Positions 3 to 18,032 of a stretch of DNA of 64,000 nt are shown here, piece after piece. This DNA is from Tremella fuciformis. Taxonomy: Eukaryota; Basidiomycota; Tremellomycetes; Tremellales; Tremellaceae. The stretch covers positions 1,520,972-1,584,971 of the forward strand of contig CP136497.1 of NCBI GenBank assembly GCA_032768795.1, given 5' to 3'. Every line of letters starts with the position of its first letter. Within the stretch, counting starts at the first letter, position 1. The translations under genes were made by a program, and so were the position numbers. The notes beneath the pieces are model-generated. The model was not told the DNA's origin, searched no databases, and saw only the letters and a program-made list of their open reading frames with translations.

Positions 3-764
3 CTGAGGATCTTCTGCGACTACAAGCAGGACAACTGGGCTACTCTCCTCCAGCGAGCGGCGTTCGCGTACAACAACTCAATGCATTCGGCAATCATGAT
101 GACGCCGTTTGAAGCAAATTTCGGCTACGCCCCAAGGTGGGCAGAATCCATCGTCGTCGATGGAGAGGCTCGAGAGATCCCATCAGTCGTCGAGAAGTTT
201 GCTTCGCTCGAGGAGGTGCACGCGTTGTGCAAGAAGAACATCGAGCTCGCCAATGAAGCATACGCTAGAGGGTATAATGCCAAGCATCAGGAGGCCCCCG
301 AGATGAAGGTAGGGGACCAAGTGATGCTGTCGATGGAAAACATACAAACTCGACGACCCTCGAAGAAGCTCGACTTGAAATGGTGTGGACCCTACAGGAT
401 CATCGCAAAGGCGGGCAGCGCGTACAAGCTTGAGCTGCCCGACACAATGAAGGTCAATCCAGTCTTTTCGGTGGACCGACTCAAGGTATTCGAGCCACCG
501 ACGCTCCCAGGACAAACATACGATCCGCCAGGGCCTGTGGAAGTCGACGAGGAAGGGGAATCATTCGAGGTGAAGAGGATCATCGACTCGAGGAAAAGGA
601 GAGGGCGATTGGAGTACAAGGTGGAGTGGCTCGGGTATGAGGGAACGGATGAGGCGACGACATGGGAACCGGCAGGGAACATTGATGGAGCCTGGGCGAG
701 CATTGAGAAGTTCCACAAGGAGAACCCGGAGAAACCAGGAGGCCAAGCAGCAACCAGGGCCTAA
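3..764 (+). CDS. Ty3/gypsy pol, integrase C-terminus plus chromodomain (partial, cut by window edge)
   Basis: The frame is open from the window edge and shows the end of a Ty3/gypsy polyprotein. It begins after the integrase catalytic core, at the segment matching 'DNWA.LL..A.F.YNN' in the complete copy at 6952-11169. The basic linker before the last domain is preserved, and the protein ends in a chromodomain: the stretch containing RLEYKVEWLGYEGTDEATTW has the aromatic residues expected to bind methylated histone tails. Chromodomain-bearing integrases (chromoviruses) use it to target heterochromatin. The protein is clearly related to, but not the same as, the pol of the complete element. Everything upstream (gag, protease, RT, RNase H) lies outside the window, so intactness cannot be judged. 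Stop codon at 762-764. Confidence 0.9.
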   Translation: MRIFCDYKQDNWATLLQRAAFAYNNSMHSAIMMTPFEANFGYAPRWAESIVVDGEAREIPSVVEKFASLEEVHALCKKNIELANEAYARGYNAKHQEAPEMKVGDQVMLSMENIQTRRPSKKLDLKWCGPYRIIAKAGSAYKLELPDTMKVNPVFSVDRLKVFEPPTLPGQTYDPPGPVEVDEEGESFEVKRIIDSRKRRGRLEYKVEWLGYEGTDEATTWEPAGNIDGAWASIEKFHKENPEKPGGQAATRA

Positions 765-887: not shown

Positions 888-2481
888 TCAAGATGTTCCC
901 TCGAGAAACTCCCCAAGTGTCAACTCGTCGAAGTTAACACCCAAGTCACCTGCGATGTCTCGCGCCCGTGAGATAAAGTAGGTACGCATCGGTGCTTGAG
1001 TCTCTCGGCGAGCGAAGTGACTCAATTGAAATAACTCTTGCCACCGGCGGTCTGGGGCAGAGGTCGAGGTCATTGGAGCGGGTGGTGGTGGTGTTGGCGG
1101 CGGTAGCTGCATCATGGGAGGGGGTGGAGACCAGTGAGAAGTCCTTGATGGTCCGGCTTGAGGTACAGGATCGAGTCCGCCATCCCCTAGCCAACCCGTG
1201 CCAGCGTCATCCATCGGTTCCGGAGCAGGGGGAGGGAGCGGGCTCAGCCTACTCGTCGAGGTAGGATGCCCCGAGCGGAGCCTCTTGTGTGACAACGGTG
1301 ACGAAATGGGCGAGGACGAAGAGCGAGCCCGACGTTTCTCTCTTCCCTTTCCCTTCCCTTTCTTCCCAGAAGCCTTGACCGTGCCCGCTAGGTCGATGTT
1401 GGCGAGGCCAGCAGCCAAGGTCGTCGACGTGGACCGGGCTGCAGCGAGTCGGCCGGAGCGTCGGGCGCCGGGCGTGACGGGCGAGGGAGACGTGCCGCGG
1501 GCGAAGGACACCTGACGGCGCCGTGCCGATGACGAGGGGCCAGGAGTTACCGTGCCGAACGAGCAGGCCAGGGTGCCGCACGTTAGGCACTTCACTTTCT
1601 TGCCTTCCTCGACGATGCGACACGGGAGGTCGTCGGTGACACACGCCTCACATCGCTCATCCCCTTCTAGAACCCGGATCGGCCGTGAACCCGCTTGTTG
1701 CTGAATGTCAGAGGATACCAAGTAGCTGACAATACTCACCCGGGCCCATGTCAGAGATCTGTTGTATCCCCGTTGTCCTCGGTCGGGGTAGTGGGAGCCT
1801 ACTGATCAGTTTGGGCGAAACTTGCAGACTTTACTTACCAAAGAACGAACGGTCCAATGGCTCTGACTCCGGGACCGGCAGTCCCCATCCCTTCTTCACA
1901 TAGTATGCCTCCTCGGAGGCATTTCGCGGGTCAAATCGCCGGCTAGGAGAAATCTCCTCCTCGGACAAGCTCGACGATGCCGGAGTGTCGGGCGCTAGCT
2001 CGTCCACATCAGCCTCTACATCCAACTCCTCCTCCCCCTCTTCCTGTGGGACAGCCGCGGCAGGCGCATCGCTGAGTAGCTCCGCAGCTTGTTCGTCGGG
2101 CGGTGGGATGGCTCCGACGGCGGGGAGTGGAACAGCCTCGTCGACTGTTGGGATGTCGGCAGTCGAGGCGGCTTGCGTGGGGGATGGGAAGGGGGTGCCT
2201 TCGGGTTGGGCGGTGCCGGCACGAGATGGGGATGGGTTGGACATCGAGTCGACACTGACAGTCTCAAATCGAGAATCGGTTTCTGTGCAGAGTGTTACTG
2301 ACCCGTCTGAGTCAGAAGATGCCTCGTCTATAGTTGCCGTAGGGGTTGTAGGAGAAGGATAGGACAGCGCGTTGTCTAGAGAACTGCTGTCGAAGAGGAT
2401 GTAGGGAGATGGAGGGGGCGAGCTTGTGGTGAAGGTGGATGCGTCGAGTGTTCTTGGTCTCGAGAGGTGTAGCCAGGGCAT
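888..2481 (-). CDS. Antisense Cys-cluster protein carried by the left Ty3 element
   Basis: Three exons give one frame: 2481-1839, 1801-1740 and 1700-888 (minus strand; introns of 37 nt GTAAGT...ATCAG and 39 nt GTGAGT...TTCAG). They encode about 505 aa. The N-terminal 200 residues are Ser/Pro/Glu-rich and acidic. The middle holds a cysteine cluster CX2CX6CX10CX2CX4C (beginning CEACVTDDLPC, ending CLTCGTLAC). A basic, Ser-rich, NLS-like region (KGKGKGREKRRARS) follows, then a Pro-rich linker and a short helical C-terminus (RTYFISRARDIAGDLG...). The gene lies antisense between pol and the 3' LTR. The complete Ty3 at 4424-13044 has a homologous gene at the same place. The Cys spacing suggests zinc binding, and nuclear or nucleic-acid binding is an inference. 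Function unknown; I do not recognise a named family. Confidence 0.7.
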
Positions 2482-2827
2482 AAGGCGTGAGTTGAGGTTG
2501 ATGGTGGGGATGAGAGCGCTGACGCCCTCTCCCCCCTCTGTTTATGTCGTTTTCGAGCACCCCGCGACATGGCGACGCCCTCGAGCATCACGAGGCTACC
2601 TCGACGACGGATTGGCAGTCCTTTCACCGTTTCCTTGACGACCGCTCGACGACTTGTCGCCAGAGTTTCGCTCCCGGTACAAGCGACGTCATTCGACTGC
2701 TATCTCGACTCATGGATCGGCAATGCGGGTGTGCTCGACGAGGACGAGGACGAGGACGAGGATGAAGGCTGGAGTGGATGGAGATAGCGCGTGTCTCGCA
2801 GGAGCTCGACTTCAAAGGTGGGCAGAG
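2482..2827. other. Non-coding spacer between antisense gene and LTR
   Basis: The stretch contains the presumed promoter of the antisense gene and, at about 2741-2766, a GAGGAC hexamer tract. It ends in the purine-rich tract that primes plus-strand synthesis, immediately before the LTR at 2828. No other gene seen. Confidence 0.5.
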
Positions 2828-3262
2828 TGTCACGACGGCCACGCCCTCGACGACCTACGCACGTGACCAACACCTCTCACGTGAGCGACACGTGACCTAC
2901 CTCGGGCTGGAGAACCTCGACGAGGGAGTAGACGTTGAATGAACGCGCGACGGCGGGAAGCAGGCGCAGAGTCATATAGGATGCCCCGGGCGCCCGTCGT
3001 AGTTCTTCAGCACTCTCTGATTGAGTCTCATGGATCACCATTGACGATCTCACTCTCTCCGTGGCACGCAGCGTGGCTGAGTCGCACTCACGCTGTATCC
3101 TCGACGACCTTGTTACCTCGACGACCTTGTAACCTCGACGAGGATCCAACCTCGACGAGGATCCTACCTCGACATCCTCGTTTCTACCCCTTTATCCTTT
3201 ATTCTTGACTCTGATATTGTGCGAGAGGGCCTCTGCCAACGGGAGAGCGCAGCATCGTGACA
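2828..3262 (+). repeat. 3' LTR of the left Ty3 element (435 bp)
   Basis: It starts TGTCACGAC and ends TCGTGACA, giving the inverted TG...CA ends of an LTR. The first bases match the LTR of the complete Ty3 element. The interior contains three copies of a short CTCGACGAGGATC-type motif near 3130-3170. Confidence 0.8.
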
Positions 3263-3588
3263 CGGAGATAGCGAAGCAGCAAGTCGACGGGTTACTCGGT
3301 CGCGCACGCAACGTGATTGAGATCTTAAAAGATCGATCGAATCACACCGAGGACGAGAGCATGCTCATGAAAGAGGACAACAAGAAACTTGAAGCGCGAC
3401 TGAAGGAGACCGAGGCACAGCTTCTTGCTCTGCATCAAGAACACTCAGAGATTCCTGTCGCTGTTCAGACTGAGCTTGCATCTCTGCGGGCGCGTTGCCA
3501 GCACTATGTCGAGAAGTATGAGAGCGGCGGAGATGAGGTGACTGCTCAGGAGGCTGGGCCCTCCACAGCAGCGGTGCAAATTGTGTAG
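3263..3588 (+). pseudogene. C-terminal remnant of a coiled-coil protein gene, cut by Ty3 insertion
   Basis: Immediately after the LTR the plus-strand frame encodes about 108 residues rich in Lys, Glu, Leu and Gln with heptad-like spacing (EDNKKLEARLKETEAQLLAL), i.e. a coiled coil, ending ...AAVQIV and a stop at 3586-3588. The upstream part of the gene must lie beyond the left edge, on the far side of the Ty3 insertion. It faces the MULE-protease gene tail to tail, 223 bp apart. It could be a second gene of the same DNA transposon, but I see no domain that proves this. Confidence 0.6.
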
Positions 3589-4418
3589 CGCATGTGTCTA
3601 TCCATGTTTGATTTGGAGCTGTACATATCGCGATCGCCAACCTGTATACACATAGACTCCGTTCTCGATTCGTTATGTCTAGATCGCATCTGTATATAGT
3701 CATGTATCACGCGATCGCTCTGAATAAATCATAGATAGGGAGTGCGATCAGGAGTCGAACCAGCCCACTGCTTCACATGGCTCCTACCTATCTACACAGT
3801 CTCGCTACTCCTCAACAAGCTCTCCATATGTCCTGCCTAACCTCGAAGATGCACTCTTTGAGTGTGGCCCGTTCTTGTTCGCCTGACCAGCTCGACCTGC
3901 CCTCTGCCCAGAGCACAGCCATGCAGTGCACCCAAAGTGCTCTCCTTAGATTGACTCCCTCGGAAGGCGCTAGTCCCAGGCGACGATTCTGCTCTGAATC
4001 ATCCAGATTTTGTCGACAAGGCTTGAGACCTTGAGCTAAACAGACGGCGGCTGTTGCGGCCAGTGGCCCGCAATTGTAGGAATCCTCTTGCTCGAACCAG
4101 CCGATCGCTTCGCGCCAAGTCGATGTGTTAGGGCAGATAATCCAACCTCGATTGGTATCCTCGTCCACCAGACAGCGCTGAAGCTCCCATTCGAGACGTC
4201 GATCGAGTTGATCGCGCCAGAGAGAGTATAAGTGCGGATGATCCAATGCGCCCCCTTTCCCGTCGTAGAACACCAAGAGGCGTTGCTCGCCAAAGATCGC
4301 CAATGTGCAAAAATGCAAGTTCGGCGCCGCGCTGATAGGAATGAAAGTAACTTTCTTCCTCCAAGCTGCCGTCGGTCCTAGCACTTCCAAGGGGTAGCGA
4401 TTCTGTGCGATCGCCAGT

Positions 4419-4423
4419 CGACC
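4419..4423 (+). repeat. Target-site duplication CGACC, left copy (partner 13045-13049)
   Basis: The 5 bases before the left LTR (CGACC) equal the 5 bases after the right LTR at 13045-13049. Removing one copy and the element restores the MULE-USP-ULP1 reading frame (...PMG|RLAIAQ...). This proves the boundaries of the insertion. Confidence 0.95.
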
Positions 4424-4936
4424 TGTCACGACGACCGCCGTCTCTGTCCAGGGCCCGGCGGGCACGTACTCCAAACGGTCGGCGTGGGGGTCGTTGACGT
4501 CGATAGGTATGAGCGAGTTGGGCGAGGAGCTCGGCGAGGGACTCGCTGAGCTCGGGGAGGTGAGCGAGGGGCTCGGCGAGGGACTCGCTGAGCTCAAGGA
4601 GGTGAACGGGTTGAGCGAGGGGTGCGGCGAGGGACTCGCTGAACTCGGCGAGCGGGAAGGTGAACTCGACGAGCGCGAGCGAGTTGAGGGAGGTAGACGG
4701 GGAACTCGGCGGGGGACTCGGTGTCACTGGCAAGCCAAGCGACGGGACGGAGCAGGCAGTCTACGTGTCTGCAGAGAACAACAATTGGGAGAAGACTACG
4801 GAACGTATCGCGCGCCCAGTCTTCCTAAGTATCCGTCGTCCCTCGGTGAGCTCGGCGAGTGATGCGTTGAATCAACGAGTCCGAGCTCCGTCTCCCCACG
4901 TGGCTTCCATGTGCTCTCCCTACGTCCGTCGTGACA
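4424..4936 (-). repeat. 3' LTR of the complete Ty3 element
   Basis: 513 bp, TGTCACGAC...GTCGTGACA, same orientation as the copy at 12532-13044. I count three substitutions, all within the first 60 bp. Internally it is made of imperfect GAGCTCGGCGAGGGACTCGCT-type repeats. Confidence 0.95.
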
Positions 4937-5197
4937 CTCTGCCCAACCTTACGATCGAGCTCCTGCGAGATAGTCGTGGTTGTGGAAGTCGGCGGCGGAG
5001 TCGGCGAGGTCGACGAGGGACTCGGCGAGGGGCTCGGTGAGGGACTCGGCGAGACGGTCAGCGAGGTCCTTTCAGGTACGATGTTGATGCGGCGAGGCGC
5101 GCTAGTTGCTGGGCAACCAAACACACGGCCGAGGACAAGTGGACAGAGGACTCAGCTTTTCCATTCTCCGTTATCTCATCACTCGGCCAGCAACAAC

Positions 5198-6860
5198 ATG
5201 GCCCCAACAACACCAGCGGCAACGCGCAAGGCGAGCGCGGCGAGACGACGAGCCCAGGCGGAGGGGCAGACCAGTGAGTCGGCGCGCGCAGCGCGCCGAG
5301 CGAGCGAACTGGTGGCTGACGCGAAGGGTGGGGCGGGCGGTTCGTCGTGCCGTCGAGGGTAGCCCTGGTTGTGCAGGGCCAGGGGGCGGAGCGAGGGGGG
5401 GAAGGGGGGCGAGAGGAGCAGCCGGCGCGACGTGAGTGGCCGAGAAGAGGGAGATGCAGAGCTGACGGGAAGGATTCGACGGCACCCAGCGGACTTTCGG
5501 TCGCGGGCGCGGCACTCGTCGAGAGCGCTCGGCAAGCGACGAGCTCGAGATCGAAGAGCTCGGCGAGGAGGAGGTTGCCGGGGAGGTGATGAGGGGAGTG
5601 GTGGACGGGGAGGAGGAGGAGGAGGAGGGGGAGGAGGAGGAGGAGGAGGAGGAGGGCGATGGCGGCAGCTCGCCGCTGACGCAGCTCGAGCAGGAGGACG
5701 AGGAGATGGAGGTGGACGGGGGCGGCGCGGAGAGGCTCGAGCTCGAGCCTGCCCTGCCGGTGGACGAAGGAGAGGGCGAGCGGATGGGGCGGCGCCGGCG
5801 TAAGCCACAGCGGCACTATCAAGAAGAGATGAGACTGACGGGCAGGAATCGAACGAACCGATAGCGTGTTCGACGCCGAGGCAAGCTGGCGGGCCGGAGC
5901 CACCGCCTACCTCAACCCCTTCGACCGACCCGACTCGGAGGCCCCAATGTGCGACGTAGTTTACTCCGTCGTGCATGACTTACCCTTGGGCGAGCGCCTA
6001 CCCACGCCGCCGCGCACACGACCCAGTCGCCGACCGCAAGGAGAGGCAAGCGGCTCGCGCGGCGAAGTGAGCGAGGTCAGGGAGGTCAGCGGGGCCGACG
6101 ACGTCGACATGGAGGCGGAGGAGGCGGCTGAGGCCGCGCTGCAGGCGGCGGCCGAGAGGATGGAGGCCTCCATGGAGGCACTGCAGGCGGCGATGGGCTG
6201 GAAGGGCAAGGGGAGGGAGGAGGGGGAGAGGAGGGGAGAGGGGGAGGGGGCGCGGAGACCGACACCGCGAGCGGCGCCGCGGACGCCTGCGGCGGCCGCG
6301 ACACCTTCCCGGAGACCGGCAGCGCCTCCAGCGACCCCGCGACGAGCCGGGCGGCACGAGAATCGGACGCCAGCGAAGATCCTCGTTAGTACCCGTCACA
6401 ACCAGCGGTAGATACTTATCAGCAGGACCACCACAAGGACGCGGTAGACGCCGAGCGGCCGTGTCGTTGGTGTAGACAAGAGGGACGCCGCTGCCTCGTC
6501 CCGCCGGGCACAATAGGCCGAAAGTGCTTCACCTGCACAACCGGCCGCTGTACTCTGAAGGATGGGGAGGCGCCGTCCAGCTCGCCGACCGCCGAGCGGA
6601 CGCCACTGCGCGGCGACCCCCCGGCGACACCTCGGCGCGACGCGCCCGCGACACCTCAGCGGTCTGCGGAACGCCACATCGGTCCAGGCGACTTTGCAGC
6701 CGCCCAGGGCCTCGCGGCGCTCGCGCGCAGCCCGGACAACCCCCGACTGCGTCAGTACGCCGTAAATGAGCTGCGGCGCATGCTTGGGGAGGATCTGAGC
6801 GAGTGGGGTCTTGACGACCTCAGCGAGGGACCGGCCCCCGGTGGGTCGGGAGGACGATAG
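5198..6860 (+). CDS. Antisense Cys-cluster protein carried by the complete Ty3 element
   Basis: The gene is on the strand opposite to gag-pol, between pol and the 3' LTR. A consistent model is 5198-5273, 5473-5799, 5846-6384, 6423-6860 (about 459 aa). The 46 nt and 38 nt introns (GTAAGC...GGCAG; GTTAGT...ATCAG) are well supported by frame changes; the first, 199 nt, is tentative. The start at 5198 lies in ACAACATGG. Features: an acidic poly-Glu tract, a segment with FDAEASWRAGATAY, an Ala/Arg-rich basic region, and the cluster CX2CX6CX10CX2CX4C (CRWCRQEGRRC...CFTCTTGRC). A helical C-terminus (LRQYAVNELRRMLGEDLSEWGLDDL) follows; stop at 6858-6860. Cys spacing and C-terminus match the gene at 888-2481 although the linkers differ, so the fold is conserved between the two elements. 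Function unknown; a regulator or nucleic-acid binder acting for the element is plausible. Confidence 0.7.
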
Positions 6861-6951: not shown

Positions 6952-9900
6952 TCATACCGCTCGGCGAGCGCCTCGCCGAGGCTTCGGCGCACTTGATGGC
7001 TTCTCTGGGTGAGCGGCGTGGAAGTCCGCGACGAGTTCGGCGGCCGACTCGCTCACATGAGCTAACGGCTCCCAAGTCGCGTGCTCATCCGTGAGCTCAA
7101 AGCCCAACCATTCAACGAGGTACTCAAGGCGTCCACGGCGTATTCGAGAATCCAGGATCGCCGCAACCTCCCAGCTCTCTCCCAGCTCGCTGTCCACTTC
7201 CACCGGGTCGGGAGGCTCGTACGACTGACCGGGCAAGGTGGGCTGTTGGAAGGGTTTCAGGAGGTTGACGTGGAAGACGTCGTGGCACTTCATGGAGGGA
7301 GGGAGAGCGAGGCGATACGTTACCGGGTTGACCTGCTCGATGATCTCGAACGGTCCACCGAACTTGAGGTCCAGCTTCTTCATCGGTCGCCGAGTCTCGA
7401 TGTTCTTCAGCGAGAGGAGCACCGAGTCACCGATCTTGAAGCTGGGCGGCGACGAGTGCTTAGCATCGTAGTGCCTCGCATAGTCGCGGTTCGCCGCCTC
7501 GATGTTAGCCCGGCAGAGCTCATGCAGATCACTCAGCTCCGTTGCCTTCCGCAGTCCCAGTCGTTCACCGGCATCCGCACCCTCCTTCTCCGAGTTCTCC
7601 GAGTTCACCAAGTCCTCCGTCCACCTCGGCGAGTACCCAAAGTTTGCTACAAACGGTGACATCTCGATGGCCGAGTGCTTCCAGTTGTTGTACGAGAACG
7701 ATGCGCACGGCAAAAGCTTAGCCCAATTGTCTTGCTGATAGGTCGAGAAGACCCGGAGGTACTGCTCGAGAACTTGATTTACCCGCTCAGTTTGCCCATC
7801 AGTCTGCGGATGGAAGGCCGTGGACAAGGACAGCTTAATACCCAAGGCCTTGCACAGGTTGGCCCACAGCTTACTGGTGAACTTGGAACCTCGGTCAGAG
7901 ACGATGGATTGCGGGAGCCCGTGTTGACAGACCACGTGATCAATGATCAACTCGGCGAGTCCCGCCGAGTTGAGCCGAGTGGTCGTCGGAATGAAAATCG
8001 CCCACTTCGTTAGTCTGTCAACAACCACCAGAATCGAGTCAAAACCGTTAGAGACCGGCAGGGGCTCGATAAAGTCCATGGAGATGGATGCCCAGGGCCT
8101 CTCAGCTATCTCCAGCGGCTGGAGGAAGCCGTGAGCCCGGTGACGGTCGGTCTTGGTCCGCTGACATACTGCGCATGCGCGGACGAAGGCCTCCACGTCG
8201 CGCCGGAGGCCAAGCCACGCGTAGTCGCGCTTCACCAACTCGAGAGTCTTCGTAACGCCCGGGTGTCCTGCGAGGATAGCTTCGTGCCGCCTCTTTAGAA
8301 TCTGCACCCGTTCCGGCCCCGGTTCCACGTACAGTCGTCCGTCGACTCGCAGCCTTCCCTCGGGGTCACGCTGCAAGAGCGCTTCCCCAGAGAAGCCGAG
8401 CCTTCGGCAAAATCCCAACAGGACGGGGTGAGTCGAGGAGAGAGTAGGCGCGTCAGAGGTTAACTCAGCCAGGACCGGGGACAACTCGGCGACCTCAACG
8501 CGTTCCTCGCCGACCTCTTCCTCCTCCTCCTCCTCGACACCGATCTCGCCGAGTGTTGCTGCACGGAGGAGATGGCGTAGGGAGGACGAGACCGTGGAGG
8601 AAGAGTCGGCGGTGGGGAGTGCCTGGATGAAGTTCTGCGGCTGCTGCATCAATGGCCCTGGGAGATACGCCGAGTCCCGGGAGAGCGCATCGGGAAGTTC
8701 GCCCTCCTTACCAGGGCGATACACGATCTTGTAATCGAACCCAGCTAAGATCTCAACCCATCTAGCCTGGCGAGGGTTCAGCTGCCGCGGTTCCATCCAG
8801 TAAGTAAGATTCAAGTGGTCAGTGATGACCGTAGAATGAACCTGGGACAACAGATGCCGTTTACGTCGGAAGGCGTGAACGATAGCCAGGAACTCCTTCT
8901 CAGTCACCGTGTAGTTCAACTCGGCGCCTTTGAACGAGCCCGACTCAATGGCCACGGGGTGCTCCTCGTTCGCCGAGTTGACTTGCGAGATGACGAAGCC
9001 CCAGCCATAGGCCGATGCGTCAGTCTGCACAATCGTCGGCAACTCCGGGTTGAAGAAAGCGAGCACCGGAGCCTGGCTCAGTTTCTCCTTCAGCGCCTGG
9101 AACGCCTGTTCCTGCTCCTCATCCCAATGGAAACCGACCGACGCTTTCGTCAGATGGTGTAGCGGCCCGGCGACTTTAGCGAAGTGGGGAACGAATCGCC
9201 GATAATAGCTCGCCATTCCCAGGAAGCGCCGCACCTCATGGAGATCCTTGGGCCTCGAAGCCTCTTGGACCCCTTGGACGTAGCCCGGATCAGCCGCCAC
9301 GCCGTCTTTGGAGATCAAGAACCCCAGGAACTTCACGGATCTCTGCTCAAACCGGCACTTACTCGCCTTCAGGAACAAAGAGGTTCCTCGCACTCGCTCC
9401 AGAACTAGCCGAGTGACTCGGCGAAGCTCCTCGAGTGTCTTGGCGTGGACGATGATGTCGTCGATGTATACCGTGACCCACTGCCTGAGATCACTGAACA
9501 GCTCATTCAGGAAGTGCTGAAAGACGGCCGGTGCGTTTCGCAGCCCATCACGCACGACCAGCGACTCGTACATGCCAAACGGCGTGCGGAAGGCGGTGAG
9601 GCTCTCAAATCCTTCGGCGAGCCTGAGCAACTGGTACGCCGAGACCAGGTCAAAGCAGGAGAACCACTCGGAGCCACCAAGGTCAGAGATGACTTGAGAA
9701 ATCAACGGAACGGGGTAAGCATCAGGAACGGTGGCGCTGTTCAGATGTCGGTAATCCACCACCATTCGCCAGTTCACGCCGTCAGTCTTACGCACGCAGA
9801 AAGTCGGCGAGCCGTACGGCGAGTTGCTAGGCCGGATCCGGCCCGCGGCTTCTTCTCGCTCGAGGATTTGCCTCATAGCCTCCTTCTGATCTTGGGCGAC

Positions 9901-11169
9901 CTCATAGAGCGGGGCAAGCTTGAGCGAGCTGCCCTCCTTCAGCTCGATCTTCATGTCATAAGCTCGGTGCGGTGCAAGAGTCTCGACGCCCTTCCTGGGG
10001 TGGAAGACGTCGAGGAACTCCAGGTACTGGTCAGGAACGCTGGCGGCAATCAGCTGAATCTCGGCCTCAGAGAGTTCGGCGGGCGGTTCGAAAGAGGGCC
10101 ATGAGCTGAGCTCATCCAACTGGTCGAACCTCAGCGAGCTCGGCGAGTCTGTGGCTACCGCGCACAGTTTCAGCTCTTCAGCCACCGCAACGAATGGCCA
10201 GCGGCAGGGAAGAGTCACGGGGATGGAGTTTGAGCGAGAGAACGCGCGTTTCTTTGTTCCCATCCGCCTCTTTCTAACTCGCCTCTTCCCCGGCTGCTGC
10301 TTCCTCAGCGAGGGCTCGGCGCTTGGCGACCGTCCTGCTCGATCATCCTTGGTCGACAAGCAGGGGGAAGGCAAGGTGTTGGGCAGCTCAGGATCAACGG
10401 ACTCGGTAGGGACAGCGGGGCAAGGGGAAGAGCAGGGCTCAGGATCAACGGGCACAGGGGACTCGGCGGACGCAGCGGATGTAGGGAACTCGATAGACTC
10501 GGCGACTTCAGGGGACACGGTGGACTCGGTGGGTTCAGGGGACACGGTGGAGCTCGGCGGCGGAGAGAGAGAGAGAGATGAAGGGATTGACTCGGCGACA
10601 TTGGAAGTGGGAACGGGCTCTGCCCAACCTTGCGAGGGTGCTCCCGTGACAGTTCCCTCGCCGAAGTCGATTACAACTCGGCGAGTTCGCAGCCACGGGT
10701 AGCCCAACACTGCATCAGCTCCATTCAAGCGCGTGAGCTCGAACCTTGCTGTGCCAGCATACTGGCCCACCTCGACTCGCTCGCGAGAGAAGTGAGTCAG
10801 CGGGCCATCAGACGACTCTACTCCGTCAAACAAGGTGAGTCCGACGGGCTTGTCGTACGCATTGAGGGCAATGCGGTGTCGCTCGGCGAACGACTTGGCG
10901 AGGAAGTTAGCGGAGGCTCCTGAATCCAGGAGGATCTTCGCGGGATGCCCGCTGATGCGACCTGCGACAACAGCGTGCGTGGGGTTGTCTAGGAGCCTCT
11001 CAGAGGCTGCCCAACCTTGTGGGGAATCAGTGTGAGTCACGGGTATACGGGTATCATCGATCTGGGATGAAGGAGAACGGGAACAGTCAGAGATTACGGT
11101 CGCGGCGAGTCGATGCGGAAAGGGATGATGCTCGCCGAGCTGTTGTCCACCATCCCTCAGGCTTTTGGG
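6952..11169 (-). CDS. Ty3/gypsy pol polyprotein with chromodomain, expressed by -1 frameshift
   Basis: The frame runs from the slippery site at 11169-11163 to the stop at 6952. It has no ATG near its beginning (the codon at 11040 is GTG), so expression as a Gag-Pol fusion is expected. Order: aspartic protease (LLDSGASANF); reverse transcriptase (YIDDII in place of the usual YVDD); RNase H (TDASAYGWGF); an acidic poly-Glu spacer; integrase HHCC zinc finger (H...H...CAVCQ); the DDE core (MDFIEPLP, VSDRGSKF, HPQTDGQTERVNQ); and a C-terminal chromodomain (RLEYLVEWLGFELTDEHATW). Length about 1,400 aa with no stop or frameshift. The C-terminus is close to the partial pol at 3-764 but the two differ at many residues. 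Confidence 0.93.
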   Translation of the reverse strand, partial: PKSLRDGGQQLGEHHPFPHRLAATVISDCSRSPSSQIDDTRIPVTHTDSPQGWAASERLLDNPTHAVVAGRISGHPAKILLDSGASANFLAKSFAERHRIALNAYDKPVGLTLFDGVESSDGPLTHFSRERVEVGQYAGTARFELTRLNGADAVLGYPWLRTRRVVIDFGEGTVTGAPSQGWAEPVPTSNVAESIPSSLSLSPPPSSTVSPEPTESTVSPEVAESIEFPTSAASAESPVPVDPEPCSSPCPAVPTESVDPELPNTLPSPCLSTKDDRAGRSPSAEPSLRKQQPGKRRVRKRRMGTKKRAFSRSNSIPVTLPCRWPFVAVAEELKLCAVATDSPSSLRFDQLDELSSWPSFEPPAELSEAEIQLIAASVPDQYLEFLDVFHPRKGVETLAPHRAYDMKIELKEGSSLKLAPLYEVAQDQKEAMRQILEREEAAGRIRPSNSPYGSPTFCVRKTDGVNWRMVVDYRHLNSATVPDAYPVPLISQVISDLGGSEWFSCFDLVSAYQLLRLAEGFESLTAFRTPFGMYESLVVRDGLRNAPAVFQHFLNELFSDLRQWVTVYIDDIIVHAKTLEELRRVTRLVLERVRGTSLFLKASKCRFEQRSVKFLGFLISKDGVAADPGYVQGVQEASRPKDLHEVRRFLGMASYYRRFVPHFAKVAGPLHHLTKASVGFHWDEEQEQAFQALKEKLSQAPVLAFFNPELPTIVQTDASAYGWGFVISQVNSANEEHPVAIESGSFKGAELNYTVTEKEFLAIVHAFRRKRHLLSQVHSTVITDHLNLTYWMEPRQLNPRQARWVEILAGFDYKIVYRPGKEGELPDALSRDSAYLPGPLMQQPQNFIQALPTADSSSTVSSSLRHLLRAATLGEIGVEEEEEEEVGEERVEVAELSPVLAELTSDAPTLSSTHPVLLGFCRRLGFSGEALLQRDPEGRLRVDGRLYVEPGPERVQILKRRHEAILAGHPGVTKTLELVKRDYAWLGLRRDVEAFVRACAVCQRTKTDRHRAHGFLQPLEIAERPWASISMDFIEPLPVSNGFDSILVVVDRLTKWAIFIPTTTRLNSAGLAELIIDHVVCQHGLPQSIVSDRGSKFTSKLWANLCKALGIKLSLSTAFHPQTDGQTERVNQVLEQYLRVFSTYQQDNWAKLLPCASFSYNNWKHSAIEMSPFVANFGYSPRWTEDLVNSENSEKEGADAGERLGLRKATELSDLHELCRANIEAANRDYARHYDAKHSSPPSFKIGDSVLLSLKNIETRRPMKKLDLKFGGPFEIIEQVNPVTYRLALPPSMKCHDVFHVNLLKPFQQPTLPGQSYEPPDPVEVDSELGESWEVAAILDSRIRRGRLEYLVEWLGFELTDEHATWEPLAHVSESAAELVADFHAAHPEKPSSAPKPRRGARRAV
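11122..11169 (-). promoter_or_regulatory. Programmed -1 ribosomal frameshift signal between gag and pol
   Basis: In gag frame the heptamer reads C CCA AAA (minus strand 11169-11163), a canonical XXXYYYZ slippery site two codons before the gag stop. After a 6 nt spacer, GGGATGGTG (11156-11148) can pair with CATCATCCC (11130-11122): nine pairs including one G-U, around a 17 nt loop that itself contains CTCG...CGAG. A -1 slip enters the open pol frame. Confidence 0.8.
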
Positions 11170-12422
11170 GCCTGTCCCTGGGCGGGAATCGGGGGCAGCG
11201 GCCTCGGCTTAGCGGTGGGGCAGTTAGCCAGCTGGTGGCCGGCCTGCCCGCACCGCAAGCAGAGCCCGCTGTGCAAACGGCGCTCCCTCTCGGCCTCCGT
11301 CAGAGACCCATCGGGGTTGCGCGTTGACTTCAGCAAGTCTGACCCAGAAGGGCCCGAACTCGCCGAGGACTCGCCGCGCTGCTCGCTGGGGCGAGCAGGC
11401 GGGAGCGACGCGCCCAAGCGCTCAGCCCATGGGCGTCGCGCTGGCGCTTCAGCCTTGGCATACTCCGGCTTGTGCTTTTCAGCCTTCGCCGCAGCAGCCT
11501 CCTCCAGCTTCCTCTCCTCCTCGCGATGACGGAGGCGATTGTCTAGAGGCACAATAAACTCGACGAGCTCGGTCAGCGAGTAGAACTCGCCGCGCTTAGC
11601 GATCTCGTCCTTAAGATGAGACTTGAGCCCATGGATGGCCCAGTCCACAATCGCGACCTGATCAGTGAAACCAGCAACCGCAACAAGCTCCCTGACCTTA
11701 GCGAAGTGCTCGGCAGCTGACTTGGTCTGCCGCAGCGCTCGAAGTTGTCGCTTTGCCGTACCCCGTTTGTCCGGGTCGCCGAAGGCGGACTTGAGGTACC
11801 TTTTGAACGCGTCCACCGTTGCGAGCTCGGCGGGTCGCGGCCGCATACCTACCATCGGCTCGACAGACTGAAGAGCCGGTCCCCGCAGGTACGAGATCAT
11901 GAACGAAACCATGATCTCCTCCGACTGGTACCTGCCCCCATGCAAACTGAACATCAGCTCGCACTGCAACAGGAACCCTTTCAGCTTGGCGGGATTCTCC
12001 CCAGAGAAGGTGTCAGGCTCCTTGACCTTCGGCTCCTTCGGCGCGCCGCTCGCTGAACTCGCCGGGCTGAACGAGGGAGCTCGCCCTCTTGGGCGGAGGA
12101 ACTCTTCTTCCTCCTGAAGCTCGAGGCGGGCTTCCTCAAAGGCTTCGCGGCGGATATTCCACCGCTCGAGCTCTTTCAAGAAGAGCGCCATGCTCGCCGC
12201 ATCACTGATGTCGGCGGGAGGTGTAGGCATTGGGCCCAAGCCTCGGCGAGCTCGCCGAGACTCTGACGCCCTGGGAGTGTCAGGCGGGGTAGCCCCGCCT
12301 TCTTCCTCCCTAGTCACGGTCACGGCAGGGGGAATGGGTGGTGCAGGAGGCTCCTCCTCGGGCTCATTGAGCCTGGGGGATCTCCTGGGTAGACGAGAGG
12401 ATTCAGGTGCGGAAGGAAACAT
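11157..12422 (-). CDS. Ty3/gypsy Gag
   Basis: 421 aa from ATG 12422. The N-terminal 120 residues are Pro/Glu-rich. A retrotransposon Gag capsid-type region follows (FSGENPAKLKGFLLQCELMF, then ...DPDKRGTAKRQLRALRQ), with a charged linker. Near the C-terminus lies a CCHC zinc knuckle, CLRCGQAGHQLANC, for RNA packaging. The reading frame ends at 11157 two codons after the slippery heptamer. It lies 110 bp downstream of the 5' LTR on the element's sense strand. Confidence 0.9.
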   Translation of the reverse strand: MFPSAPESSRLPRRSPRLNEPEEEPPAPPIPPAVTVTREEEGGATPPDTPRASESRRARRGLGPMPTPPADISDAASMALFLKELERWNIRREAFEEARLELQEEEEFLRPRGRAPSFSPASSASGAPKEPKVKEPDTFSGENPAKLKGFLLQCELMFSLHGGRYQSEEIMVSFMISYLRGPALQSVEPMVGMRPRPAELATVDAFKRYLKSAFGDPDKRGTAKRQLRALRQTKSAAEHFAKVRELVAVAGFTDQVAIVDWAIHGLKSHLKDEIAKRGEFYSLTELVEFIVPLDNRLRHREEERKLEEAAAAKAEKHKPEYAKAEAPARRPWAERLGASLPPARPSEQRGESSASSGPSGSDLLKSTRNPDGSLTEAERERRLHSGLCLRCGQAGHQLANCPTAKPRPLPPIPAQGQAPKA

Positions 12423-12513
12423 GATGAGGAGGGCTCAGAGAGGGAGAGAGAGGCCTCGACGAGATGAACGAGGAGAAACAGGACTCAGCGGTCTGGGTAC
12501 GTGTCCGACGGTA

Positions 12514-12531: not shown

Positions 12532-13044
12532 TGTCACGACGACCGCCTTCTCTGTCCAGGGCTCGGCGGGCACGTACTCCGAACGGTCGGCGTGGGGGTC
12601 GTTGACGTCGATAGGTATGAGCGAGTTGGGCGAGGAGCTCGGCGAGGGACTCGCTGAGCTCGGGGAGGTGAGCGAGGGGCTCGGCGAGGGACTCGCTGAG
12701 CTCAAGGAGGTGAACGGGTTGAGCGAGGGGTGCGGCGAGGGACTCGCTGAACTCGGCGAGCGGGAAGGTGAACTCGACGAGCGCGAGCGAGTTGAGGGAG
12801 GTAGACGGGGAACTCGGCGGGGGACTCGGTGTCACTGGCAAGCCAAGCGACGGGACGGAGCAGGCAGTCTACGTGTCTGCAGAGAACAACAATTGGGAGA
12901 AGACTACGGAACGTATCGCGCGCCCAGTCTTCCTAAGTATCCGTCGTCCCTCGGTGAGCTCGGCGAGTGATGCGTTGAATCAACGAGTCCGAGCTCCGTC
13001 TCCCCACGTGGCTTCCATGTGCTCTCCCTACGTCCGTCGTGACA
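12532..13044 (-). repeat. 5' LTR of the complete Ty3 element
   Basis: 513 bp, TGTCACGAC...GTCGTGACA. On the element's sense strand U3 would be about 137 nt and R+U5 about 376 nt, if transcription starts at 12907 as the self-priming site implies. Confidence 0.95.
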
Positions 13045-16000
13045 CGACCCATCGGGCGATCGATTAGGTCTGCCATGGCGTGTTCGCCCCGCCACGCAGG
13101 GGATCGCAGAGATGCGGAGATCGCTACATCGACGCTTTGACACAGATCGCTAATCAGCCAATTGGTCCACCACCTTGTCTGTTCCGAGAAATATCTCATG
13201 GTGTCATCTGTGTCCATTCCGAAGGTCCGTCCGAACGTTGTCATTCCCGCGATCACGTTTCCCGACTTGCGCTGTCGCTCCAATTCGCTTCGACCTACTG
13301 CGAACAAATCGAAGGTAACATCGGGCAAGACCGGCACAATGGAGACGAGGGGTCGCACGTCTGCCCAAACTATCTTCTGGTAGCGGACCAACGCCTCTGC
13401 CTCAAGAGCGTGTTGTTCTTCAAGTTTTACGGCTAGCACGGCATAATCAAACTCCACCAGTGGCGGGGCGTTTGTTTTGACCAACACAACCTCGGGCGAT
13501 TCTGACACTTTGTTGAGGGACCTGGACACCGCCTGGGACCGTTGTTTTACCCTCTTCGACCGAGCAGCCGCGCCAGCCATCAGGCTAGGAGATGGCGGTG
13601 GGGGTACGACACGTTCGCTGAGGCCTTTTGGGTGTGAGAGTGCAGTTCTTGCCATAGCTGCTTGTTGCAGGTTTCGATTCGAGATCGCGGCGACTATGGG
13701 ATTGATCTTGTCCTCTGCTGGCTTGACTGTTGACAAGGACGAAACCGCGATTCGTGGTACGGCTCGTTCGTAGACAAGGTAAATTGGTAGGAACGGTCCT
13801 CTAAAGGCGTCTTGCACGCCACTGAGCCTGGTCGCTCTATGATCGCTGAGTCTCCACCAATTTCCCTCGTGCCGCAAGATCAGACAATAATGCCCCGCAC
13901 TCGTGTCCACGCCCGATCGAACAATCACGTACGATAAACTATATCGTACATTTGAGGTCGCTCCCGAATTCGAGTAGAAGAGTGGAATGTCAACCTCATG
14001 TTCGATCGTGAAAGATAGCGATCGCTGAGCCTCGTCGGTCTCGAAGGCCTTCATTGGATATTGAGGATGAATTGCGAACAGATCGCCAAGCTGCGAATAG
14101 GCGATCACGGACTTCAGAAGATCATGGTGCCCGCAGCTCCCACAAGCCAAGGCAAGTGGCGGGAGGGCGTGTACACCCTCAATGGAGTGGCGCACGAGAC
14201 CAGTCACACTGCGATCGAACAGTGAATCGTTCGCCGGGTACGCGGTCTGGCTGATGCCATGAATACTGGTGCAGTCCTGTGATGGCAGATGAGATTCGCA
14301 TGCCCGACACTGGAAGCGAACTGCAGAAACGTGCTCAAATGCCAGCCGATAGCTGTGATCGCCGACCAAGGTATCCATGTGTTGGACTAGTTTTTCGAGA
14401 AACTCAACTGGATCGTGTTGGTTTGACGAGTGGTCATCGATCAGATCGGCATCTGATCATCAGACTTGAGCCGTGACGGCTTCGAATAACTCACTCATGA
14501 GACGTTCTTGAAGGCCCATGAGTGTTACAGCTGCACCGTTCTGGATCGCCTCTCTTGCTTGCAAAATGTACGGGAAAACGGCACCGGCTGGATTTTCCGT
14601 CTGAAGAAGTTTTGCGCGATTCGCGGAGTCCAGGCTATCGAGCGCCGCCAGACGCGACCACATTCCCAGGATACACAGGGCAAAGCAGTCCGTTGATGGA
14701 TTCAAGAATCCCGTGGGAGGCAATTGTGGGGTCAATTTTCCCGGTCGCGGAGTCAAGCTTGATCGCTGTGCCTTCTGGTGGGTTGGAAGCTTGTGGGTTC
14801 GCGATATGACGTGAGGAGCAGGACCAGATACTCGAGACGCTTCACCGGACCCCTTTTCTGCATGATCGCTCGCCCGAGCGCCAATTCCCCGGGAGACAGA
14901 TTGGGCCAGGTCTTCCGCCTGGTCGCTGATCGCGATCACGGGTTTATGGGGTACCTCAGTTGTTGCAAAGGGCTTGAGCAGCTGAGTCGAAGGTTGATGT
15001 CGTCTTGCGATCGGCCCAACAGACCACGATCCATCGAGATCGGTCTCAAGCAGTCCATTCTCGGCGTTTGTGTATGTCCAATCAAAGTTGCCCAGAACCT
15101 CGTCAATCTCTCGCTTTGTCTCAGCGCCCAAGACGAACGCAGAGTCATCCCCAGTCCCCTTACCCGCCTGTCCGGCCAATGAGCGCATGTAGCGTTGTAT
15201 CTTGGCGGAGGAATTGAAGGACTTCTGCTCGTAGGTGGTAATGTCATTTGCCGTTTCGAATGCGGCCATTGCCCAGAGATGTTCGCAGCGTTTTCCGGTT
15301 TGTTCGAATGCAGTGCAAGAGCAAAATTGTCGGGCATCGCACTCAGAGTTGCCGTTCGCACCTTGGAGGGGTGCTTCCGAGGCGATCCACCATCCGCAGT
15401 ACTGAATCTCTTTACCCGTATCTCCAGCGATCGAGAAGACCGGGTTCGCGCGCCCTCGGTATGCCAATGGAACCTCATTTTGGTCAAGGCGAAGGACGCG
15501 ATCGGCCTCCCAAGCATTGAATCCGGCGAACAGTTGTCGAACAAGCTTCGGATCAGGTCGCGATCGTTCCAGCCAGTTATGTCTATAAAAGGGGAAGTAG
15601 ATCTGAAGCAAAACCATGATGAGGCGGTCGATTCTGTAGATCAGTCGCGGCGCACCAGGCTGAAATTTTACGCACGGTTTGTTCATCCTGCACAGCAGGA
15701 ACACGGCGTCGAACGTCTTGAATAAAGCCTCCGCATAGTTGTTCGTTGACCACGGCCCGTCTCTGGTGATGTGCCCCGGCATTCCATAGTCCACGGCATG
15801 ATCCCTCCAGTGATCGCTAAACCACGTTCGCAGCAAATAGGAGGAGATGAACTCCCAAAAAGCTTCTCCTTGCCGGCCACCGCCCACCACGCCGCGCATA
15901 TCATTTTCGAAGTCTTTCCAGTATTGGTCCCATTGCGATCGATAGGGACATCTTTGGAGTCGGCGAATGAGGCGGAGAGCGGTCTCTGTATGGGTGTCGG

Positions 16001-18032
16001 AGATGGGGGTCGGCCCAAAATGCCCTCGCAACACTGCCCTGCAAGACTGCATCAGGTGAAACTGGCAAACTCTGATGCAACAGCCTGGGAATACTGTCAA
16101 GATCGCTCGCCGCTCGGCCCCGCTCGCATCGATCATGAACATGGCGGGCTTGAAGCCCTCCTGTACAATTGCGCGGCAGTTGTTCATAAGGTCTTCGTGG
16201 AACTGCGGAAGGCAAATTGGTTTGCGTTCGCCGTTTGCGATCGCCTTTGCTAGCTTGACAATTGCCTCCTTCAAGACACGCAGGAATGCCGTGTAATCCT
16301 CACCTCTGATCCGAGTATGCACGTTCGCCGCGACTAGATGGTCAATTGACGTGCTTGACTGTTCGCATAGGACTTGCCTGGGGTCATCCGGTGAGTGTCT
16401 CCCAACGTAGACACCATTGTCAATGGAGCCTTGAGGGAGTTCTTGTTCTTATGCGACGTGTCTAGAAACAGTCCCCGAACCGGGCCGTGAAGGATCGCGG
16501 CTTCCAAAGCATGCTGAGGAGCAATGATACACGAGAAGTCATCATCGAGGCTCTGAGGCATCGCGGCCCGTCCCTCAATCTCAGCAAATCGCAAGCTGCA
16601 AGTAAGCATCAGGTTCATTATGGAGAGACTCACTGAATGATATCACTGTGATGGATTTCCTGTAGCATGGCGATCGCGGCAACAGGGTCCGCGTGCAGCC
16701 TCTGGCGACGCAATGCGGTGCGAACAGAGGACTCATACACGCGACTCGAGGCAGGCAGGCGGTGGGGTGCTTCTCGCTGCAGAAACTGCAGATGCTCATC
16801 GGCCTCTATCATGTTCGATTGGAACCCTGAAACTGTCAACTGGTTCGCTTGCCATGAGAAATCAAACGCACGTATTCGCAGCTGAGTCGGCGTTGTTCCG
16901 ATTTGACTCGCCAGTCGTTGTAGAAGATTGCGAACGTAACCCGAAACTCGCAGACAGGAGAGTGACCATGGTCTCCGGTGACATGTCGGTAAGGTGATCC
17001 GACAAACACCTCTCTGGACGTCTCGTACTGTCATTCGCACCTTCGATCAGCTGATCGCCCCGTCTTCTTGCTGATCGCTTACCACCAACACCTGCCCGCA
17101 TTGCTCGTTCGACTCCGCAGTTTGCAATGGACTCGCAAGACGACGCCTCTTCCTGTGTCGATCCTCCTCATGAGAGGTCCCCACTCTCCGCTCGTCCACT
17201 TCATCAGTCGTCACGGGGATCATGCGATTGAAGAACTGCCTTGCTTTCACATAGGTGACAAACTCCTCAGTTCCGATCGAGCGCGATTGGGCTTTCTCGC
17301 CAGGGCAAGCCTCGTCACAGGCTCGCGAACACTTGAATATCGACCGCCAGACAAGCCGATCTGGCTCTAATCCTGTGCTATTAGGTATGGAGAGATGGAA
17401 TCGCCTTGATCGAATGTCTGCCGGAATGTATCCAGGAGGATCTATCGGTCGCACCTCGACACAAGCCGAGTATGTTTGCTGATAGATCTCCCAATCGTGT
17501 TCCTGCAAGCTTAGGCAATTGTTGACCATTATTAGAGCTGATGACCCACGAGAGCGTCGAAGACCTTGGGAAGATCCAAGAGAGCTACTTCCTGCTCGAA
17601 ATAGGAAGGTGTCTCATGCAGACGATCGTACAGGGAGACATGAAGCGCGTGTAGCTTGCGATCGAGCCCGGGGATGTCGACCAGGGGCTGTGTCACATAC
17701 ATGACTCGCTCACAAGCTGGCGCAAGCTTATCGATCAGAGCCCGAGTCCTTCTACCAGCTGATCGCGCTGAACATGGTGACCAAGGCGCGTCCGACTGCT
17801 GTGTCGCATGCGACCGATAGGAAGGTGGGACGCTGGAACCCTCAGAATGCTGGCTCGGAGTGACAGCTGCTGCTACGGGAGGGGTCGCCGGAGGAGGGTC
17901 AAAGAGCTCATTGGGCCTCTTTCTTGGCCCGTTAACATAGGCCTTCCGGGGACGCCCTGGGCCTCGACGAGGTGCTTGTGGCACGACACCGCCTGCGATC
18001 GCCAGGGCTATAGGCTTCTTGTCGTGAGTCAT

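Follow-up and report, generated by a model that had tools for sequence, protein, structure and literature searches.

An antisense, intron-containing gene with a six-cysteine cluster between pol and the 3' long terminal repeat of Ty3 chromoviruses in Tremella fuciformis

Do the Ty3 chromoviruses of the basidiomycete Tremella fuciformis carry a genuine third gene on the strand opposite to gag-pol and, if so, what might its product do? The question is raised by two long terminal repeat (LTR) retrotransposons, element 1 (family A) and element 2 (family B), in a 64-kb window (the whole stretch of DNA analysed, at the end of contig C8 of a genome of 28.1 Mb in 11 contigs), for which a first-pass annotation made from the letters alone had proposed a spliced gene with a cysteine cluster antisense to gag-pol. 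Antisense accessory open reading frames (ORFs) of LTR retrotransposons have been described for years, and their function is given as not known in the available parts of two accounts (PMC7264820, PMC11963269). Judged by sequence comparison, the gene in question is a true third gene, antisense, intron-containing and accessory, between pol and the 3' LTR, and the existence of a protein-coding antisense gene can be held with high confidence. Homologues of it, likewise antisense, are present in five of the genome's Ty3 families (A-E), and a sixth (F) has a similar gene.

Gene models and the two elements of the window

Joined, the exons of gene A (2481-1839, 1798-1740, and 1700-888) form a frame of 504 amino acids (aa) and those of gene B (5198-5273, 5473-5799, 5846-6384, and 6423-6860) one of 459 aa. 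The parts of both genes are listed below, together with ratios of nonsynonymous to synonymous substitution (dN/dS; Nei-Gojobori estimates in the antisense frame) against other copies, which are designated by locus number (L051 and the like).

1839..2481, minus strand: gene A exon 1, with the start codon (2481); encodes an acidic N-terminal part rich in Ser and Pro; frame open once joined, last 27 codons with dN/dS 0.10-0.15
1799..1838, minus strand: gene A intron 1, 40 nt, GTAAGT..CTGATCAGTAG; frame shift if retained; family C has an intron of 39 nt at the same position
1740..1798, minus strand: gene A exon 2; joined model and A/C alignment
1701..1739, minus strand: gene A intron 2, 39 nt, GTGAGT..CTGACATTCAG; in frame, no stop; family C has an intron of 47 nt at the same position
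888..1700, minus strand: gene A exon 3, with Cys cluster, basic stretch, Pro-rich linker, C-terminal helical module, and stop; dN/dS 0.29, 0.19, and 0.17 against L051, L054, and L055
1563..1652, minus strand: gene A Cys cluster, CEACVTDDLPCRIVEEGKKVKCLTCGTLAC; found by pattern search
5198..5273, plus strand: gene B exon 1, the least certain exon; joined frame open
5274..5472, plus strand: gene B putative intron 1, 199 nt, uncertain; GT..AG consistent with the frame
5473..5799, plus strand: gene B exon 2, very acidic; dN/dS 0.18 against L017, and 0.87 against L018 on 8 changes only
5800..5845, plus strand: gene B intron 2, 46 nt, GTAAGC..CTGACGGGCAG; joined model
5846..6384, plus strand: gene B exon 3; open frame in the joined model
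6385..6422, plus strand: gene B intron 3, 38 nt, GTTAGT..TTATCAG; donor GTCAGT in L017 and GTAAGT in L019
6423..6860, plus strand: gene B exon 4, with Cys cluster, C-terminal helices, and stop; dN/dS 0.29, 0.37, and 0.15 against L017, L018, and L019; helices predicted by AlphaFold2
6462..6551, plus strand: gene B Cys cluster, CRWCRQEGRRCLVPPGTIGRKCFTCTTGRC; found by pattern search

These models leave the proposed antisense placement in both chromoviruses (2481-888 and 5198-6860) intact, with the LTRs now located, and alter some of the detail. The intron of gene A first drawn at 1839-1801 is corrected to 1838-1799, and the second intron is new; in gene B, both introns already proposed (5800-5845 and 6385-6422) stand, and a further, less certain first intron (5274-5472) is probable. 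A candidate donor GT at 5432 of gene B was dropped, AT standing in place of GT in L011 and L019. The proposed cluster CX2CX6CX10CX2CX4C is exact in both genes, which account for its only 2 matches in the six frames of the window, but its spacing is not kept in other families, the gap between the third and fourth cysteines varying from 8 to 11 and the last gap from 3 to 5 across A-E. In the proteins of A and B, the N-terminal half is acidic and the six-Cys cluster has basic stretches close by, which in A mostly follow it; the C-terminal helical module, predicted by AlphaFold2 for B, aligns across A-D, so that the cluster and the helical part are indeed the conserved modules, as first supposed. 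For the 51-residue Cys cluster, AlphaFold2 predicts one helix and a hairpin (mean predicted local distance difference test score 68), without a fold match.

The remaining parts of the two elements are as follows.

3..764, plus strand: element 1 (family A), pol 3' end with integrase C-terminus and chromodomain (about 564-719); Pfam SH3_Tf2-1, 5.3e-14, and Chromo (PF00385), 6.9e-12
2828..3262, plus strand: element 1, 3' LTR, 435 bp, TGTCACGACGG...CATCGTGACA; the 5' LTR lies outside the window
12532..13044, minus strand: element 2 (family B), 5' LTR; 3 mismatches against the 3' LTR
11160..12434, minus strand: element 2, gag; PF03732, 3.7e-06, and a weak zinc knuckle (PF00098, 0.021, below cut-off)
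6952..11208, minus strand: element 2, pol, 1418 aa, with protease, reverse transcriptase, RNase H, integrase, and chromodomain by Pfam; chromodomain PF00385, 2.5e-10
4424..4936, minus strand: element 2, 3' LTR; 3 mismatches against the 5' LTR

Both elements are Ty3 chromoviruses, each with a chromodomain at the C-terminus of its integrase (PF00385, 6.9e-12 and 2.5e-10). The start of the window cuts element 1 within pol, and what follows is the pol end with its chromodomain, the antisense gene (2481-888, minus strand), and the LTR (2828-3262). When 434 bases of this LTR were searched, a 100% identical partner turned up 7.6 kb upstream (C8:1516174-1516607), beyond the edge of the window, so that element 1 is about 8 kb long and young. 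Among the matches listed, an LTR pair encloses the family A gene in at least 12 copies, element 1 included (counted by eye), and at least five family A copies (on C8, C6, C3, and two on C4) have both LTRs 100% identical to the query LTR, so that the gene is present in recently inserted copies. Element 2 is complete within the window on the minus strand, with a 5-bp target duplication (GGTCG) read from the flanks at both ends and the antisense gene (5198-6860, plus strand) between pol and the 3' LTR. The distance from start codon to 3' LTR is about 350 nt in A and 260 nt in B.

Selection on the antisense frame and its probable splicing

The first-pass view that the protein is under selection agrees with the Cys-bearing exons of divergent copies, where dN/dS ranges from 0.06 to 0.37 and is not near 1. 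This range includes the values listed above for exon 3 of gene A (at dS of 0.23-1.07) and exon 4 of gene B, as well as those for the last exon of family E (0.16, 0.08, and 0.06). The 27-codon tail of exon 1 of gene A gives 0.14, 0.10, and 0.15; for exon 2 of gene B, which is not delimitable in L019, the value of 0.52 against that copy is meaningless. Pol pieces of the same copies give 0.12, 0.06, and 0.13 (A) and 0.06, 0.01, and 0.12 (B), so the antisense protein evolves faster than pol, yet is clearly constrained. Changes in the antisense frame show an excess at third positions, and all six cysteines persist throughout A-E apart from decayed copies (one Cys is missing from L055, and a stop stands at one Cys position in L054). 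The antisense frame is free of stops in 10 of 11 sequences (one stop in L054), and both shifted frames of the antisense strand and the mirror frame on the gag-pol strand contain stops in all 11, the mirror frames holding 1-8 each.

It is very improbable that the frame is a chance one mirrored from the sense gene, or a captured host zinc-cluster gene that is passively carried along. Antisense frames can seem open by chance, and fungi possess many zinc-cluster proteins; however, the strict cysteine pattern occurs in 0 of 40 dinucleotide shuffles of the window (a loose six-Cys pattern in 2 of 40), and the dN/dS values are at odds with chance as much as with passive carriage. Chance open frames were ruled out by the shuffles together with the stops in the shifted and mirror frames. 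An explanation by the antisense RNA itself, acting as double-stranded RNA or through interference with gag-pol transcription, is quite unlikely; it would suit a layout convergent with gag-pol, and such roles have been proposed for plant antisense ORFs in the available part of one account (PMC7264820), but the constraint on amino acids, the retention of the six cysteines, and the frame kept across introns all speak for a protein.

The evidence for splicing comes from comparison of genomic sequences. Among family A copies with exon-3 dS of up to about 1.07, the donor and acceptor of both introns are kept and the intron bodies have varied. Two introns stand at the same positions in families A and C, whose pol ends are only about 66% identical, and differ in length (40 and 39 nt in A; 39 nt, with an in-frame stop, and 47 nt in C). 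Of these four introns, only intron 2 of A could stay in place without disrupting the frame, and the spliced proteins align through both junctions (LDRSFFG/SHYPDRGQRGYNRSLTWAR/QQAGSRPIRVLEGDERC versus LDRAFFG/PFYPTFGRGSNRTLPWAL/AQAKGRPLRTLNGRQRC, with a slash at each junction). The donor of intron 3 in family B differs by copy (GTTAGT, GTCAGT, or GTAAGT), and one copy of family E has an extra base inside what looks, by eye, like an intron with a GC donor. Splicing of the genes is thus supported comparatively, which fits the earlier proposal that an orientation antisense to the genomic RNA is what lets the introns persist. Intron 2 of gene A is in frame and stop-free, so its retention adds merely 13 residues; its sequence (1739-1701) is well conserved among four copies, which could reflect regulated retention.

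Families, origin, and genomic neighborhood

Searched against the genome itself, the B exon matched 22 times and the A exon 64 times; once 7 rows had been merged as extra pieces, these came to 79 copies, assigned by score and length to families A (27), B (15), C (32), and D (5). In 71 of the 79, an A-D type pol end is immediately followed by the gene on the other strand, and three further copies are antisense, one with a nearby chromodomain (C10:753273) and two with a pol fragment in the locus (L055 and L022), which brings the count to 74. The remaining five are short, weak, or stop-bearing fragments without detected pol; searched with 1.5-kb flanks, four have no match to the pol ends of A, B, and C, and the fifth copy (C10:735325) is itself just a weak gene match (E 3.5e-4). 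Copies unpaired with an antisense pol have no same-strand A-D pol end within 2.6 kb. Two C copies have their nearest listed chromodomain on their own strand, 3.0 and 3.7 kb off, and both are paired with their own antisense pol end. Seen from pol, the gene follows 71 of 73 A-D pol ends (among the 150 matches listed), the exceptions being one end with a stop (C10:33710) and one that is partial (C11:313372). Homologues that are mainly free-standing host genes, which the first-pass annotation had named as the outcome that would overturn it, are therefore not what this genome holds; a family of free-standing host genes was not found, and the lack of any intact free-standing copy among the 79 and the sharing of the gene by five families, consistent with the pol phylogeny, also count against capture from the host.

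Counted from gene matches and not from pol ends, the gene is antisense and downstream of pol in 22 of 22 matches of family E (pol ORF of 1508 aa) and in 19 of 19 of a further family, F (ORF of 1832-1886 aa, probably a fused gag-pol); 2 of these 41 matches were placed by the position of the integrase, the chromodomain not being among the matches listed. Read by eye, family F (L069, G000:C6:2263800-2266351) has an antisense multi-exon gene of its own, with a cluster, ECNACEKAGKPC...CFVPASYAYLSCVRCHSQHGVSC, split by a putative intron. The last Cys gap of this split cluster is 7, and its second half is present in 19 copies at 96-100% identity.

In ten other Ty3 families (L063-L068 and L070-L074; a single copy of each, and two of one), the reading covered about 2.5 kb behind pol. 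The loose six-Cys pattern was found in one antisense frame in none of the ten, although clusters split by an intron would escape such a reading. Five of these families (L064-L068, with L074 as the second copy of the L066 family) share a tail of RLRGLR followed by P or L, and L063 is similar without the tail. Downstream of a pol ORF of 1217 aa, L073 (G000:C1:1950900-1954400) has an antisense gene-like stretch with another Cys layout (CAAC..CVC..CLGCMLKSKHC, by eye), and its antisense C-terminus, PGLARNAILEIYR, resembles by eye that of family D.

An integrase tree of 16 rows, which includes some of the genome's families without the gene, unites A-E in one clade (support 98/95), with A+C (99/96) and B+D (91/91) within it; E and F are on long branches, and F falls outside A-E. 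Against the A-D profile, the cluster of E gives a match that takes in the CSF at the last Cys (hhalign probability 86, E 5e-6), and single pieces of F and L073 have no match to that profile (hhalign; for F probability 0.4, second cluster half only). The single integrase clade of A-E makes it probable that the gene was gained once, before these families split, and then passed on with pol; the gene of family F would be either very old or independent.

Around element 2, the flanks (window 3812-4420 and 12933-16448) look like a DNA transposon of the Mutator-like element (MULE) type, inside which the element sits. An ORF beside it (14460-16448, minus strand) has MULE and SWIM matches below cut-off, the ORF adjoining this one carries a ubiquitin hydrolase domain (PF00443), and an SYNCGPLA motif beyond element 2 recalls Ulp1 proteases, without a Pfam match. 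Elsewhere in the window (44781-49922), a Ty1/copia polyprotein of 1713 aa occupies a single open frame (RVT_2, 2.9e-61).

Possible role and comparison with known systems

The antisense protein is read here as a nuclear protein that regulates how its own family is transcribed or silenced, a proposal in which confidence is evenly balanced. An antisense RNA polymerase II transcript would start in or beside the 3' LTR and be spliced in the cell, and its product would be a nuclear protein that is acidic in its N-terminal part, binds zinc through the six-Cys cluster, with basic stretches close to it, and has a helical module at the C-terminus. As the genomic RNA would be unable to splice these introns, the protein would be made solely from integrated DNA and the introns would survive reverse transcription. 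The protein would then act in trans on its own family, in the manner of HBZ of human T-cell leukemia virus type 1 (HTLV-1), either restraining the output of the 5' LTR or opposing silencing. A bolder reading, tentative and rather doubtful, is that a chromovirus clade gained once, long ago, a multi-intron regulatory gene of a kind possible in a retroelement only as antisense, whose product, made from integrated copies alone, would be a provirus-stage switch like HBZ of the deltaretroviruses, and that the same outcome was reached separately, by way of a different Cys-rich protein, in a second lineage of fungal Ty3 elements, represented by family F and perhaps by the family whose pol ORF has 1217 aa.

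Several observations weigh against a constrained nuclear regulator. Near-identical B copies give ratios of 0.5-1.8 on 4-7 changes, with no purifying signal, though that number of changes is too small to show selection either way; over exon 4 of the B copy in the window, the gag-pol strand has one more frame without stops; and the N-terminal parts diverge strongly. The antisense protein has no significant Pfam, PDB-sequence, or fold match (the models being of low confidence). Classical DNA-binding Cys clusters have basic residues between the second and third Cys, and the corresponding residues of A, VTDDLP, are not basic. A search of the protein collection yielded no homologue from another fungus; the full A protein (residues 190-300) had none at E of 0.01 or below among 52 candidates, and the A-E profile found a single protein, P0001, among the 7993 listed candidates that were scored. 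This protein (214 aa) is 99% identical to the family C exon and lies on a 3.9-kb contig of a public assembly, so the element is probably present in another sequencing data set. A control search with the pol of element 2 found 2229 proteins, the best 120 including Kwoniella shandongensis (60% identity) and Tremellales sp. Uapishka_1 (62%), so the collection does include fungi, and the lack of matches for the antisense gene may reflect divergence below the five-residue word limit of the search.

Two other roles for a protein have to be set beside regulation of the element's own transcription. The product could be an anti-host factor, opposing silencing or acting on host genes and not on its own promoter, which is possible but rather unlikely; the composition, which suggests a nuclear protein, and the retention of the gene behind 71 of 73 A-D pol ends would suit it. 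A role after transcription, in which the protein would work with the integrase chromodomain to anchor the integration complex on chromatin or steer it there, is unlikely. The gene-bearing families do have a C-terminal chromodomain in the integrase, and the basic stretches and helical C-terminus could bind partners; against this, a transcript made antisense after integration is an odd source for a component of the particle, and the other multi-copy chromodomain families have no six-Cys antisense frame in the roughly 2.5 kb read downstream of pol in one or two copies (intron-split clusters apart), from which it follows that such a protein is not generally needed.

Whichever role applies, what an antisense gene does in retrotransposons becomes directly testable here: the gene is present in five related families, of which some have near-identical copies, its conserved cluster is short, selection on it is clear, and its small introns would serve as strand-specific tags of expression. 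The arrangement offers a retroelement a route, not open to a gene on the sense strand, to keep an intron-bearing gene through reverse transcription.

In its cysteines, the protein recalls the fungal zinc cluster Zn(II)2Cys6 (PF00172), with six Cys starting CX2CX6C and a CX2C in the second half. The spacing of that domain is CX2CX6CX5-12CX2CX6-8C, with a last gap of about 6-8, whereas the last gap is 3-5 in A-E. Its fold is a binuclear zinc fold with two helices, beside which stands the one helix and hairpin of the modest-confidence model for the 51-residue cluster. No match to PF00172 was obtained at E of up to 1 for the Cys exons of A and B, nor at E of up to 10 for 7 members of A-E, a search in which the HMMER filters drop most matches above about 0.1. 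By profile and by the spacing of the last Cys, the protein is thus apparently not a member of Zn(II)2Cys6, although it may work like one.

HBZ of HTLV-1 and APH-2 to APH-4 are antisense, transcribed from the 3' LTR, and spliced, and HBZ has an N-terminal activation domain and acts in the nucleus on transcription from the 5' LTR, as described in the available part of one account (PMC10186651). The analogy is one of layout only and no sequence relation is claimed; HBZ has a basic leucine zipper (bZIP) domain, and a Cys cluster is not mentioned in the same part of that account (PMC10186651). Exons 1 and 3 of A and exon 4 of B, the exons scanned with Pfam, have no bZIP match.

No description of a Cys-cluster antisense gene in basidiomycete Ty3 elements was found by title or opening of abstract, in a search mostly outside the subscription literature, and the available parts of three papers describe none (PMC5408684, PMC7175516, PMC2864245). 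The nearest parallels in place and strand are the aORF-3R genes of plant Ty3 elements (gene23 of Grande, RIRE2, and Retand with TRP28), which are retained in most copies and whose products are suspected nuclear or DNA-binding proteins, according to the available parts of two accounts (PMC7264820, PMC11963269). In the same way, both window elements carry the gene antisense to gag-pol in the interval from pol to the 3' LTR, with both LTRs located, and it is present in most copies of its families (71 of 73 A-D pol ends). The plant proteins differ among themselves (TRP28, SMC-like, and unknown ones), and neither introns nor a Cys cluster of this kind are mentioned in those parts of the accounts (PMC7264820, PMC11963269); Retand, moreover, is a non-chromovirus, whereas the present elements are fungal chromoviruses. 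Closer in host is the Boty-like Ty3 element of Botrytis cinerea with its brtn gene, which, in the available parts of three accounts, is fungal, has a chromodomain in gag-pol, and carries an additional antisense gene, as here (PMC7264820, PMC8365987, PMC4227169), although the host of Boty is an ascomycete and the likeness to brtn is drawn from descriptions. By place and strand, the antisense gene of the Tremella fuciformis chromoviruses belongs with the antisense accessory ORFs of plant Ty3 elements and Boty.

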